From Nitrospirota bacterium (lineage in GTDB: Bacteria; Nitrospirota; JACRHL01), in the NCBI GenBank assembly GCA_016212085.1, contig JACRHL010000019.1, positions 124,001 to 188,000 on the forward strand: 64,000 bases of DNA, written 5' to 3'. Within the stretch, counting starts at the first letter, position 1. Every line of letters starts with the position of its first letter. The notes under the pieces were generated by a model that saw only the letters and a list, made by a program, of their open reading frames with translations, ran no database searches and was not told the DNA's origin. A program made the position numbers and the translations under genes. This document shows positions 8,113 to 57,427 of the stretch, one piece after another.

Positions 8113-8255
8113 GGGTACCTCCAATAACCGTCGCGAGCGGCGTGAGTGCAAGGCGGACGGAGCGGAGAACCCGAGACATATCATGGCGATAGGCGATGGT
8201 TCGAGCACCGCTGGGCGCAGCAATCAGGACGCGCAGCAGGGTATTAGAGGTGCCC
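8113..8255 (+). mobile_element. MITE family A, copy 1 (short class)
   Basis: Non-coding 143-bp element. The left end GGGTACC is a variant of GGGCACC, and the right end reads GTATTAGAGGTGCCC. Flanking tetranucleotides AAGA (8109-8112) and AAGC (8256-8259) match at three of four positions, so its duplication has partly decayed. The interior has the family features GTGCAAGGCGG, the TATC-ATGGC-GATA hairpin and GGTTCGAGCACCGC. Its right end places AGAGG about 10 bp before ATG 8261. Confidence 0.85.
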
Positions 8256-23676: not shown

Positions 23677-23820
23677 GGGCACCTCTATTAACCGTCGCGA
23701 GCGCCCCGAGTGCAAGGCGGACTTAAGCGTAGAACCCGAGACATATCATGGGGATAGGCGATGGTTCGAGCACCGCCCAACGCAGCAATCGGAGCGCGCA
23801 GCAGGTTAATTGAGGGGCCC
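23677..23820 (+). mobile_element. MITE family A, copy 2 (short class)
   Basis: 144-bp element, left end GGGCACCTCTATTAACC, right end GGTTAATTGAGGGGCCC (three changes from the consensus end). Flanked by a perfect 4-bp direct repeat ACAA (23673-23676 and 23821-23824). The interior contains the TATC-ATGGG-GATA hairpin and GGTTCGAGCACCGC. It occupies the gap between the metallopeptidase gene and rrf2. Confidence 0.9.
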
Positions 23821-28227: not shown

Positions 28228-28241
28228 GGCGCATGACAATG

Positions 28242-28407
28242 GGGCACCTCTATTAACCGTCGCGAGCGGTCCCTAGTGCAAGGCGCCCCGAGCGGAGCGG
28301 CACCGTTACGCCGTGGAGAGCCCGAGACATATCTGGGAGATAGACAAGGGTTCGAGCCCCGCCTTGGCGCAGCAATCGGGGCGCGCAGCAGGTTAATAGA
28401 GGTGCCC
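28242..28407 (+). mobile_element. MITE family A, copy 3 (long class, perfect ends)
   Basis: 166-bp copy with perfect 17/17 terminal inverted repeats GGGCACCTCTATTAACC / GGTTAATAGAGGTGCCC. Perfect 4-bp target duplication AATG (28238-28241 and 28408-28411). Internal pairing: GCGCCCCGA (28283-28291) with TCGGGGCGC (28376-28384), CAAGGCG with CGCCTTG, and hairpin TATCT-GGG-AGATA. The right duplication supplies the ATG start of the next gene, and AGAGG in the right end lies 6 bp before it. Confidence 0.93.
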
Positions 28408-28408
28408 A

Positions 28409-30454
28409 ATGGAAATTGTGGTCATATCCGTCGCCGCGCTGGCGCTCTTTCTCGCGGCGCTCCATGGCTGGGGCCGGCTGGTCGCCCGTGCCGCCGGCCA
28501 AACCCCGCCGGATTCCTGGGCGTTCACCGCCCTGATCGGAATGGTGACCTGGGGCGCCATCGGTGGACCGCTCAACGTGTTCGGCCTGGCCCGCGGCCCG
28601 GCGCTCGACGCCATGATCGTGCTGGGCCTGCTGCCAACCGCCTGGTTCCTGTTCGGCGCCGCGCGCGGCGTACCCGGCGTCACCCATATCGTCCGGGCAT
28701 GCCTTGGGCCCAACCGGAACCGCCTCATCGACTGGTTGCCACGGCTGATCGTGTGGAGCGCCACGCTCCACGCAATCGCCACGCTGCTGCCGACGGACCG
28801 GTTCAACTTTGTCGACGACCTCCAGAAGTACGCCCCCCAGCCTTACCAGATGCTGGCGGCCGGAACCCTTGGGGGCAACCCGTTCGACAACCTCGGGCTG
28901 CACAGCCTGGGCCTCCAGGCCTACTTCCAGGCGTTCCTGCTGAACCATGCGCCGTACGTGTACGTCAACGGCTTCGACACCGTGCTGTGTCTGCTGCTGG
29001 CGGGGCTGATGCTGGACGACCTGGGCCGCCGCGCGGGCGTCGGGGTGGTGGTGCGTTGCCTGGCCGTGGTGACGCTGGTGTGGATCAACCCCCAGTACGT
29101 CAACACCTCTTCAGTCTACTCCAGCACCGTGTGCATGGTGGGCATGGCCTATGCCGCCGTGATGCTGGGGGAGGCGCTGGCCGCCGGCGCCATCCGGGCC
29201 ACCGCCGCGTGGGCGGTGCTGCTGGGGGCGACCGGCGCCATCCTCACCGCCCTGAAGATAACCATGACCCCGTACGCGCTGGCGTTCATCGTGCTGTTCC
29301 TGGCGGCGGGCCTGGCGCGCCGGGAACAGTGGCGCGGTACGGCGCTCGCGTCGGCCGGGGCACTGCTGGGCGGCGCGGCCGTGCTACAGCCGTGGCTGTT
29401 CACCTATCCCCACAGCTATGTGACGCTGCTGCTGGGCAACCTCGGGAGAGCCCGCGAAAAAATTTCCCAGGCCAGCGCGGCCAATAACCTGTTCGAGCAG
29501 GCGGCTCCGGCGAAACATGCCCACGCGGAAGGCATCCTGGGCAAGCTGAGGCTGCTGTTTTCCAGTGACACCACCTATTTCGGGCATCACTTCCTCGAGT
29601 ACGGCATCATCGCGGTGGCGGCGTTGGCGCTTGCCCTGCTGGCACTCCGGGCCCTGCTCTCCCGGCGCCGTGCCGGGAACGGCGCATACCTCGCGGTGGC
29701 CGTGGCCGCCGGCATCAGCGGTGCCCTGTATTTTCTGGCGATCCCTTACGTCTTCCCGGTCCCGCACAAGGGATTCCGCTACCTTGCCCCGTTACTGGTC
29801 GTGCTCCTGCCCCTGTGCGCCCTGAGCTACCTGGGGGGCGTGGCGCGGCCCGGCCTGGGGGTGGCGGACAGCCGCCGCCATACGCTCCGGTCGACCGCCG
29901 TCGTCGCTTTGCTGGCCCTGGTCACGGCCATGTTCACGGAGCGCTACGTGGCCCGGGTGGTCCAGCTCAACCATCACCGCTCCATGTATTCCAATCCCAC
30001 CCCCGAGTGGGTGACCGCTTACCTCCACAAGCTCTTCAGCCCGAACACGCGCGCGGCCATCCGTGGCGTTCAGGCGCGGACCCGCCCCGGCGAGGGCATC
30101 CTGGCGCGCATATCGATGCCCGTCCACCTGGATTTCGAGCGCAACCCCATCCACACCATCCCCGACCCGGGCTATTCACTGCTCTGGCTCAAGGTCTCCG
30201 TCGACCAGGGCCCGGAAGAGCTGCTCCGAACCCTTCGGGAGACCGGCATCGGCTACGTCCTGTGGGAATACAACGGGGTCGGCGTGTTCAGCAACACGCG
30301 CCTGCCGGAAAACCCCGAGCGGGTGTTCGGCGACGTCCCGCAGTGGCAACGGGTGGCGGGGTTCAACCGGCAACTCGTCACCCTGGCGCGCACCCACCAG
30401 GTGCTGTTCGATAATGGCCGGGTGATGCTGATCCGCCTGACGCCGCCGGCATAG
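28409..30454 (+). CDS. Large polytopic membrane protein, GT-C-like
   Basis: 681-residue integral membrane protein with about 11-12 hydrophobic helices spread through residues 1-520 and a soluble C-terminal region (about 540-681). The first long loop has F-V-D-D-L-Q-K-Y, an acidic pair at the position where GT-C glycosyltransferases keep catalytic Asp residues, so a lipid-linked sugar transferase is possible but not proven. No family is recognised with confidence. The ATG at 28409 lies within the AATG target duplication of mobile-element copy 3, and the ribosome site AGAGG is inside the element. Its native promoter must now lie upstream of, or within, the insertion. Confidence 0.7.
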   Translation: MEIVVISVAALALFLAALHGWGRLVARAAGQTPPDSWAFTALIGMVTWGAIGGPLNVFGLARGPALDAMIVLGLLPTAWFLFGAARGVPGVTHIVRACLGPNRNRLIDWLPRLIVWSATLHAIATLLPTDRFNFVDDLQKYAPQPYQMLAAGTLGGNPFDNLGLHSLGLQAYFQAFLLNHAPYVYVNGFDTVLCLLLAGLMLDDLGRRAGVGVVVRCLAVVTLVWINPQYVNTSSVYSSTVCMVGMAYAAVMLGEALAAGAIRATAAWAVLLGATGAILTALKITMTPYALAFIVLFLAAGLARREQWRGTALASAGALLGGAAVLQPWLFTYPHSYVTLLLGNLGRAREKISQASAANNLFEQAAPAKHAHAEGILGKLRLLFSSDTTYFGHHFLEYGIIAVAALALALLALRALLSRRRAGNGAYLAVAVAAGISGALYFLAIPYVFPVPHKGFRYLAPLLVVLLPLCALSYLGGVARPGLGVADSRRHTLRSTAVVALLALVTAMFTERYVARVVQLNHHRSMYSNPTPEWVTAYLHKLFSPNTRAAIRGVQARTRPGEGILARISMPVHLDFERNPIHTIPDPGYSLLWLKVSVDQGPEELLRTLRETGIGYVLWEYNGVGVFSNTRLPENPERVFGDVPQWQRVAGFNRQLVTLARTHQVLFDNGRVMLIRLTPPA

Positions 30455-30559: not shown

Positions 30560-30725
30560 GGGCACCGCTATTAACCGTCGCGAGCGGTCCCTAGTGCAAG
30601 GCGCCCCGAGCGGAGCGGCACCGTTACGCCGCGGAGAGCCCGAGACATATCTTGCCGATAGGCGCGGGTTCGAACACCGCCTTGGTGCAGCAATCGGGGC
30701 GCGCAGCAGGTTAATAGAGGTGCCC
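30560..30725 (+). mobile_element. MITE family A, copy 4 (long class)
   Basis: 166-bp copy: left GGGCACCGCTATTAACC (one change), right GGTTAATAGAGGTGCCC. Perfect target duplication CCTT (30556-30559 and 30726-30729). The interior is nearly the same as copy 3, including GCGCCCCGA/TCGGGGCGC pairing, TATC-TTGCC-GATA and GGGTTCGAACACCGCC. The remaining gap sequence 30455-30555 shows no gene. Confidence 0.92.
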
Positions 30726-30748: not shown

Positions 30749-32068
30749 ATGGCCACACCCCGAACCGCCCTCCGCCGCGCCGCGCCGCCGGCCCTGCTGC
30801 TGGCCCTCACCCTGGCCGCCTGCGGCGGGGGCGAGGTCGCCAGCTTCGTCGCCACCATCGCCCGCGTGTCCCTGGACCCGTTCGGCTTCCAGGCCAACGG
30901 CGCCAGCACCCAGGCCGCCATCACCCCGGACGGCCGGTACACGGCCTTCACCTCCGCCGCCAATAACCTGCTCGTCAGCGACACCAACGGCGTGGCCGAC
31001 GTGTTCCGGTACGACCGGCTGACGGACACCCTCGCCCGCGTGTCGGTGAACAACGCCGGCTTCGCCGGGAGCGGCGCCAGCGGTTCCCCGGCCATCAGCG
31101 CCGACGGCAGGTACGTGGCCTTCATGTCCCTGTCGGCCCTGGTGAACACCGACACCAACGGCGTGGCCGACGTGTACCTGCGCGACACGCTGGCCGGCAC
31201 CACCACCCGCGTCTCCCCGGACGTGTTCGACGGCCCCGCCGACGGCGCCAGCGACGCCCCGGCCATCAGCGCCGACGGCAAGTACGTGGCCTTCGCCTCC
31301 CTGGCGTCGGACCTGGTGGCGGGCGACACCAACGGCGTGGCCGACATCTTCCTGCGCGATACGTTGGCCGGCACCACCACCCGCATCTCCGTGGACACGG
31401 CGGGCACCGACGCCAACGGCCCCAGCCGCGCCCCAGCCATCAGTGCCGACGGCGGGCTGGTGGCCTTCGAGTCCGACGCCAGCGACCTGGTGACCGCCGA
31501 CGGCAACGCCGTGGCCGACGTGTTCCGGCGCGATACGGTTTCCGCCACCACCGCCCGCGTCTCCGTGGACACGGCGGGCACCGACGCCAACGGCCCCAGC
31601 CGCGCCCCAGCCATCAGTGCCGACGGCGGGCTGGTGGCCTTCGAGTCCGACGCCAGCGATCTGGTGACCGGCGACGGCAACGCCGTGGCCGACGTGTTCC
31701 TGCGTGACACGGCGAGCGGCACCACCACCCGCCACTCCGTGAACGACCTGGGCGGCCAGGCCAACCAGCCCTCGCGCCACCCGGCCTTGAGCGGTGACGG
31801 CACGGTGCTGGCGTTCGTCTCCGGCGCCTCCAACCTGGTGGACGACGACAGCAACGGCACCGCCATCGACGACCTGTTCCTGCGCTATCCGGCCACCGCC
31901 ACCACCGTGCGCGTGACCGACGGCCGCTTCGGCCAGGCCAACGGCGCAAGCGCCGCCCCGGTCTTGAACACGGACGGCACGGTGCTGGCCTTCGAGTCCG
32001 CCGCCTTCAACCTGGTGACGAACGACACCAACGGCCTGGTCGACCTGTTCCGGGCCACGGTGCCGTGA
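30749..32068 (+). CDS. Beta-propeller (PD40/TolB-like) lipoprotein
   Basis: 439-residue predicted lipoprotein: signal peptide ending L-A-A-C (Cys near residue 28), then six to seven repeats of about 58 residues with the blocks A-I-S-A-D-G-x-Y-V-A-F-x-S, D-T-N-G-V-A-D-V-F and R-D-T. These are typical PD40 propeller blades, often calcium-binding through D-x-N-G. Two adjacent blades (about 31391-31564 and 31565-31738) are nearly identical in DNA, a recent 174-bp duplication. Start is ATG 30749; in-frame TTG 30728, placed 7 bp after the AGAGG of mobile-element copy 4, is an alternative adding seven residues. Function unknown; probably an envelope interaction protein. Confidence 0.72.
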   Translation: MATPRTALRRAAPPALLLALTLAACGGGEVASFVATIARVSLDPFGFQANGASTQAAITPDGRYTAFTSAANNLLVSDTNGVADVFRYDRLTDTLARVSVNNAGFAGSGASGSPAISADGRYVAFMSLSALVNTDTNGVADVYLRDTLAGTTTRVSPDVFDGPADGASDAPAISADGKYVAFASLASDLVAGDTNGVADIFLRDTLAGTTTRISVDTAGTDANGPSRAPAISADGGLVAFESDASDLVTADGNAVADVFRRDTVSATTARVSVDTAGTDANGPSRAPAISADGGLVAFESDASDLVTGDGNAVADVFLRDTASGTTTRHSVNDLGGQANQPSRHPALSGDGTVLAFVSGASNLVDDDSNGTAIDDLFLRYPATATTVRVTDGRFGQANGASAAPVLNTDGTVLAFESAAFNLVTNDTNGLVDLFRATVP

Positions 32069-34433: not shown

Positions 34434-34600
34434 GGGCACCTCTATTAACCGTCGCGAGCGGTCCCTGGTGCAAGGCGCCCCGAGCGGAGCGGCACCGCTA
34501 CGCGCGCGCAGAACCCGAGACATGTCATGGTGATAGGCGAAGGTTCGAGCACCGCTTTAGCGTAGCAATCGGAGCGCGCAGCAGGTTAATAGGAGTGCCC
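34434..34600 (+). mobile_element. MITE family A, copy 5 (long class)
   Basis: 167-bp copy, left GGGCACCTCTATTAACC, right GGTTAATAGGAGTGCCC (two changes). Perfect target duplication ACCC (34430-34433 and 34601-34604). The interior keeps CAAGGCGCCCCGAGCGGAGC and GGTTCGAGCACCGC. It lies within or at the edge of the Sel1-repeat reading frame. Confidence 0.92.
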
Positions 34601-44569: not shown

Positions 44570-44817
44570 TTGACGTGGCATAACAACCCGTTGCCATCCA
44601 ATTCACGCCCCTGGACCGTCTCGCGTTCCGATCCCCCCGCCACCCATCATGGCACCGCCACGCCCCTTGGAAGCCGAGACGCTCCAACGGAGGCAATGCA
44701 GCAAATAATGCATCATGGCACCGCCATGCCGCGTGGAAGCCGAGACCTATCATGGCGATAGGATAGGGTTCGAATACCCCCTGCGCGGCAATCGGGGGCG
44801 CGCGGCGGGTAACGGGG

Positions 44818-54086: not shown

Positions 54087-54240
54087 GGGCACCTCTGGGC
54101 ACCTCTATTAACCTGCTGCGCGCCCCGATTGCTGCGTTGGGCGGTGCTCGAACCCTCGCCTATCACCATGATATGTCTTGGGTTCTGCGCTTAAGTCCGC
54201 CTTGCACTCATGGCGCTCGCGACGGTTATTAGAGGTACCC
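54087..54240 (-). mobile_element. MITE family A, copy 6 (inverted, duplicated end)
   Basis: Copy in opposite orientation to the others, 154 bp. Its plus-strand left end carries GGGCACCTCT twice in tandem (54087-54096 and 54097-54106). Taking the outer copy as the end gives a perfect target duplication ATCC (54083-54086 and 54241-54244). The other end reads GGTTATTAGAGGTACCC. The rest of the ribBA-DUF4388 gap has no visible gene. Confidence 0.9.
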
Positions 54241-57111: not shown

Positions 57112-57299
57112 TACAGTATCGCTGCGGGAAAGGCGTGGCTTTCCCTCGCTCCGCCGCATGCGCGGCGGGGCGCCCGTGGCGCCCTACAGTATCGCTGCGC
57201 GAAAGGCGCGGCTTTCCCTCGCTCCGCCGCATGCGCGGCGGGGCGCCCGTGGCGCCCTACAGTATCGCTGCGCGAAAGGTGCGGCTTGCGCTGGCTCCG
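57112..57299 (+). repeat. 73-bp tandem repeat, about 2.6 units
   Basis: Units start with TACAGTATCGCTGCG at 57112, 57185 and 57258. Each full unit contains three small palindromes: GGGAAAG-GCGTGG-CTTTCCC (or variant), CCGCCGC-ATGC-GCGGCGG and GGGCGCC-CGT-GGCGCCC. The third unit is cut after about 42 bp and is more diverged. It is located just after the fhs stop; the rest of the gap to 57427 shows no other gene. Confidence 0.88.
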
Positions 57300-57427
57300 T
57301 CGGTTCGGCACGCGACTCTGTTTCGGATATTTCGTTTATTGCGCTCGTTTCGGATAGCCGCTAGAATAGCCGAAGAGACGGCGATGGCCCGGGCATTTCG
57401 CCGCCATATGGGAGCGCAAGGAAAAAA

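Follow-up and report, generated by a model that had tools for sequence, protein, structure and literature searches.

Can a repeat that lands at a start codon supply the ribosome-binding site of the gene behind it, and is it made to do so? The repeat that raises the question, copy 3 of its family, is a palindromic MITE of 166 bp belonging to the long class (28242..28407, + strand), recognized by a 100% match to the query, its target site duplication (TSD) and a fold running end to end. It opens with the terminal inverted repeat (TIR) GGGCACCTCTATTAACC (28242..28258, +), which pairs in RNA with the right TIR GGTTAATAGAGGTGCCC (28391..28407, +), the right end being the exact reverse complement of the opening. 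TSD analysis places the left copy of a duplicated AATG at 28238..28241 (+) and the right copy at 28408..28411 (+). The latter holds ATG 28409, from which a 681-aa membrane protein with known homologs is read (28409..30454, +). Six nucleotides of the right TIR, GAGGTG (28399..28404, +), are complementary to the 16S anti-Shine-Dalgarno (anti-SD) sequence at an aligned spacing of 6 nt to this ATG; the anti-SD, GGATCACCTCCTT, is present in the genome.

An upstream start for the 681-aa protein is ruled out by an in-frame TAG inside the TIR (28397..28399, +), four codons 5' of ATG 28409. Three homologs, carried by relatives including two genomes of the same family, begin at query residues 2–4, and these homologs and the TAG in the TIR support ATG 28409 as the start. 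When starts are called without SD scoring, that of copy 3 shifts 9 nt inward to GTG 28418, but homologs favour ATG 28409. The nearest upstream stop is 54 bp away from the copy, and no sigma-70 promoter was found by consensus around it. The earlier note had claimed that copy 3 duplicated AATG together with the start codon of this gene, and sequence, TSD and homologs agree with it. The distances that it gave between the AGAGG motif and nearby start codons were also found again by direct reading: 6 nt from ATG 28409 in copy 3 (AGAGG at 28398-28402), 10 nt from ATG 8261 in copy 1 and 7 nt from TTG 30728 in copy 4. In the last case the spacing is right, but the gene probably does not begin with TTG 30728; the gene caller picked ATG 30749, which opens a lipoprotein-type signal sequence, MATPRTALRRAAPPALLLALTLAAC. 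The predicted lipoprotein (30749-32068) features beta-propeller (PD40) repeats, encoded by near-identical DNA repeats of 174 bp.

The window, i.e. the whole stretch of 64,000 nucleotides analyzed, hosts other copies of the element. Copy 1, of the 143-bp class (8113..8255, +), lies between the dxr stop, 7 bp upstream of it, and ATG 8261, 5 bp downstream. Copy 2 (144 bp, 23677..23820, +, TSD ACAA) is 213 bp away from the next start, copy 4 (166 bp, 30560..30725, +, TSD CCTT) 23 bp from its likely gene start. Copy 5 (167 bp, 34434..34600, +, TSD ACCC) sits in a convergent setting between two gene ends, copy 6 (144 bp, 54097..54240, - strand) adjoins an extra half-TIR, and a decayed copy without TIRs is found at 44736..44810 (+). 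Three tandem GC-rich palindromic units of 73 bp (57112-57330) bear no relation to the MITE.

TIR matches number 12 within the window, where 0.05 are expected, and 143 genome-wide, where the reversed control gave 0. The 2.7-Mb genome harbours at least 81 full copies and some partial ones, as tallied from stretches around TIR matches measuring 470 kb in all. Two size classes, of about 143 bp and 166 bp, can be distinguished; both feature 17-bp TIRs and lack a transposase gene. Target duplications are exact in 51 of the 81 full copies, measuring exactly 4 bp in 50 and corresponding to a longer match in one, and duplications of 5 bp were found in none. Their sequences vary among copies, while the element termini read GGG...CCC. 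Being short, multi-copy, bounded by near-perfect TIRs, flanked by TSDs of fixed length and devoid of a transposase gene, the repeats have the features of bacterial MITEs. At C23:2869-3147, C23:48192-48512 and C7:89386 in the source genome, G000, one copy interrupts the TIR of a second one, giving tandem or truncated arrays. No element-length matches were detected outside the source genome among 60 related genomes, homology was not found in plasmids and phages, and searching the literature for the TIR sequence returned unrelated papers only. The family is new but of a known type, that of palindromic MITEs related to IS5.

The IS5 connection comes from the TIR, which a scan of GTDB genomes located in several groups, among them Saprospiraceae, an alphaproteobacterium and Nitrospira, which shares its phylum, Nitrospirota, with the source of the window. 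Complete 1.3-kb insertion sequences encoding a 351-aa IS5-family transposase (NF033581/PF01609) lie at two Nitrospira loci (L132 and L147). The element at the former locus (L132:4446-5742) measures 1297 bp, is flanked by the TSD TATA and matches NF033581 with E=1.5e-80. Its left TIR is identical to that of the MITE over 17 bp, and both generate 4-bp TSDs; in contrast to the MITE, it is 1.3 kb long with a transposase gene, has an unrelated interior and shows 3 mismatches in the right TIR. Judged by the TIR shared with an autonomous element that carries an IS5-family transposase, the MITE qualifies as a probable non-autonomous IS5-family derivative. An autonomous partner was not found in its own genome, an assembly of 23 contigs several of which end in the repeat: tblastn gave only a weak 28% match, PF13586 transposases are missing, and the single PF01609 gene is of another IS5 type (NF033580), without a flanking TIR pair. 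A truncated IS5-type transposase gene of the NF033580 subgroup lies at C14:117948-118604 in G000.

Other TIR-bearing loci include MITEs of 111–241 bp, most of which have 4-bp TSDs; their interiors are unlike that of the present element. Such unrelated MITEs with the same TIR were found in Saprospiraceae (L123, L133, L136, L137, L145, L158), in an Alphaproteobacteria MAG (L127, L138, L151, L157, L165) and in Opitutales (L129). Nearly all the same-TIR MITEs of other phyla fold end to end as long hairpins, and the palindromic architecture seems to recur with the IS5 type of the TIR across phyla.

The location of the copies relative to genes was analyzed with a seeded, purpose-built Markov gene caller. 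Copies are intergenic in 80 of 81 cases, the remaining sequence being 84% coding. In tandem gaps, 32 copies are oriented stop-to-start and 25 start-to-stop (P=0.43). Starts at 5 bp or less from a copy are 8, against 5.9 expected from uniform landing in the same gaps (P=0.20); when starts are called without the SD bonus, start-abutting copies are 5 versus 5.6 expected. Stops at 5 bp or less are 15, versus 10.3–10.5 expected (P about 0.02–0.03), and in tandem gaps the upstream stop is found at a median distance of 27.5 bp, the downstream start at one of 123 bp (P=1.3e-4). Copies do not favour starts; they tend to lie close to stops.

Eight copies, copies 1 and 3 among them, take the place of the final bases preceding a predicted start. 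In 7 of these 8 start-abutting copies the SD match is improved relative to the reconstructed empty site; in 1 the two are equal. At copy 3 the SD score increases from 2.5 to 5.75, above the 90th percentile (5.0) of called genes, the median being 3. GAGGTG is well spaced at copies 1 and 3 and at three more predicted starts; an SD complement at useful spacing before a real start is found at copy 3, copy 1 and ispF, a gene described below. The supply of SD sequences is real enough as a by-product of the TIR at a minority of sites, and, by inference, it carries ispF. The motif is retained in 5 of 8 start-abutting ends, in 54 of 73 other start-facing ends and in 51 of 77 stop-facing ends.

The reading which best accounts for these data, to which a probability of roughly 0.7 is assigned, is that of a palindromic MITE moved by IS5, the TIR of which incidentally matches the anti-SD and serves some starts, copies landing at random and surviving in gaps. 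The non-autonomous element would be mobilized by an IS5-family transposase and would insert intergenically with a 4-bp duplication. The TIR end would read GAGGTGCCC for reasons of transposition, its match to the anti-SD being incidental. If a copy lands 0–5 bp ahead of a start, the start codon can survive thanks to the duplication, and the TIR would take the place of the native SD. Positions and orientation would reflect random landing, survival in gaps and some avoidance of 5' regions.

A single hairpin, at about -85 kcal/mol, is predicted for the consensus of the element. In 43 short and 31 long aligned copies, 94–95% of the pair cells are kept. Double-change cells are 48 in each class, versus 18.9 (short) and 19.8 (long) in shuffles, which ignore relatedness; structures slid by 1–3 columns, a control which does not ignore it, yet favours the given structure, pair in only 30–45% of the cells. 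The end-to-end stem-loop is backed by these compensatory changes. Inner TIR bases occur in matched variants (ATTAA/TTAAT, AAAAA/TTTTT, CAAAA/TTTTG, AATAA/TTATT; TIR columns 11–13 and partners), as if the two TIR ends were kept complementary. Covariation could be due to RNA function, to a need at the DNA level or to template-switch correction of the palindrome.

Folding has consequences for the SD motif, which in a read-through transcript is predicted to be paired with the left TIR in a 17-bp stem, which would shut it away at the base of a long hairpin. The predicted cost to open the SD at copy 3 is 19.4 kcal/mol, but 4.7 if the transcript includes no more of the element than its final 60 nt; the cost is 15–19 kcal/mol in 5 of the 8 start-abutting copies. 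We infer from these models that the hairpin forms in vivo and that the SD is put to use by either of two routes. Ribosomes terminating at the hairpin base may occupy the left arm and thereby release the right one, as at the ispD-ispF junction and possibly at dxr/copy 1. Alternatively, transcripts may start inside the element or be cut within it, as would be the case for copy 3, located 54 bp past the upstream stop.

Hairpins of comparable layout are known as mRNA elements. ERIC/IRU sequences, 127-bp enterobacterial imperfect palindromes, are likewise intergenic, in the 100–200 bp range, with the whole unit forming one long stem-loop, and the co-transcribed ERIC hairpin affects the mRNA (PMC2229807). 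The Correia/NEMIS repeats of Neisseria are also MITEs, come in two size classes and have TIRs forming a hairpin in mRNA (PMC2229807). By analogy, the hairpin may mainly control the decay or processing of upstream mRNA, a cut by RNase III or RNase E freeing the downstream SD. The long covarying hairpin, the copies located just past stops, the cheap opening of the 60-nt transcript at copy 3 and the ERIC and NEMIS precedents speak for this view, which is nonetheless doubtful, as proximity to stops is also expected from promoter avoidance, and the compensatory changes may stem from DNA rather than RNA. The element also differs from both families. ERIC/IRU repeats have TA-type termini and 7-bp TIRs (PMC2229807), whereas the MITE has mixed 4-bp TSDs, an IS5-type source and no sequence relation to them; Correia/NEMIS repeats differ in TA termini, TIRs of about 24 bp, an IHF site and a proposed processing by RNase III. 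In place of TA termini and a known consensus, GGG...CCC ends and mixed TSDs were found, and an Rfam scan of the window gave no match. MITEAba12 resembles the present MITE in being IS-derived, multi-copy and flanked by a regular TSD (PMC6382973), but its fold is weak, about -24 to -27 kcal/mol versus about -85 here, and IS5 is not mentioned in PMC6382973.

The preferred reading, a mobile element with an incidental SD, can be best appreciated outside the window, where a MITE (G000:C7:55853-55995; L089:3001-3143) separates ispD and ispF. The duplication is ATGA, of which TGA ends ispD and ATG starts ispF, both codons being restored. In two relatives of the same family, which provide a homologous rather than a same-species empty site, ispD and ispF overlap by 4 nt and the element is absent. 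IspF is single-copy in the genome, and alignment to its YgbB domain begins at residue 1; ispF must therefore be translated from the MITE junction, and the TIR is its best SD. The gene, part of the MEP pathway, is generally known to be essential. According to calculations, a ribosome terminating on ispD cuts the SD opening cost from 16.2 to 3.9–5.5 kcal/mol. The same calculation predicts no opening for start-abutting copies located 25–61 bp from the upstream stop, copy 3 included; the idea of opening by a ribosome applies only to ispD (0 bp) and copy 1 (7 bp), where the upstream stop touches the hairpin.

Since the element would fold itself out at its base, insertion into a stop/start overlap would regenerate both codons and leave them adjacent where the hairpin begins, and the ribosome ending ispD would sit on the left arm, freeing the SD in the right one. 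Translational coupling by RNA unfolding is documented, and NTGA overlaps are common (PMC12548453). At integron attC sites, an RNA hairpin limits downstream translation and upstream translation relieves the block (PMC8876359). Like the MITE, these sites are palindromic mobile-DNA ends located between genes (PMC8876359); unlike it, they are recombination sites of integron integrases rather than transposon copies, and an SD in the stem is not required. On such models, palindromic transposons might be transparent to translational coupling, the 4-bp duplication matching the NTGA overlap and coupling surviving a 143-nt insertion as at ispD-ispF, though this extension must be rated as quite improbable. 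The ribosome-binding site on which a housekeeping gene depends can come from the inverted repeat of a parasite, and ispD-MITE-ispF is a concrete, testable junction for how operons tolerate insertions.

The same junction bears on the view that the copies are pure passengers, neutral junk next to genes that are dispensable or rely on leaderless, AU-rich or coupled initiation, with the SD match irrelevant. Positions fit random landing in gaps, many genes of this genome have a weak SD, as their median score tells, and read-through RNA has the SD engaged in strong pairing, but the affected housekeeping genes (ispF; RuvX; BamA-like, start less certain) need translation from those junctions, which makes this view unlikely.

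That a ribosome-binding site evolved at the right end of the element, retained before starts in a preferred orientation to drive expression, as the earlier note proposed, has very little chance of being true and is largely refuted already as a general rule: the well-spaced GAGGTG motifs and the high score of copy 3 favour it, but orientation bias and start enrichment are lacking, copies lie near stops, start-abutting ends do not retain the motif better than other ends, the motif is buried in a hairpin that the note had not noticed, and identical TIRs are found in other phyla. Orientation being random and starts not enriched genome-wide, the recurrent position and orientation noticed in the window are a small-sample impression. 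The AGAGG motif is present at both ends, pointing outward, rather than at the right end only. Against a purpose-built signal, the TIR is also found at the ends of IS5-type elements and, in other phyla, of unrelated MITEs, among others in Saprospiraceae, a group generally known to make hardly any use of SD sequences. What holds of the proposed ribosome-binding site is the improved SD match at most start-abutting copies and the certain start of ispF; the hairpin-buried motif, not biased toward starts, is not a built-in, oriented translation signal. Tempting as it is to see in such repeats a signal made for the purpose, the genome-wide tally argues otherwise.

At the opposite side of genes, the first G of the element seems to complete the TAG stop (TA/GGG) of an abutting predicted gene in five copies of G000, which would supply the last base of the codon at C4:26453, C15:308715, C15:411570, C18:78604 and C23:231973.
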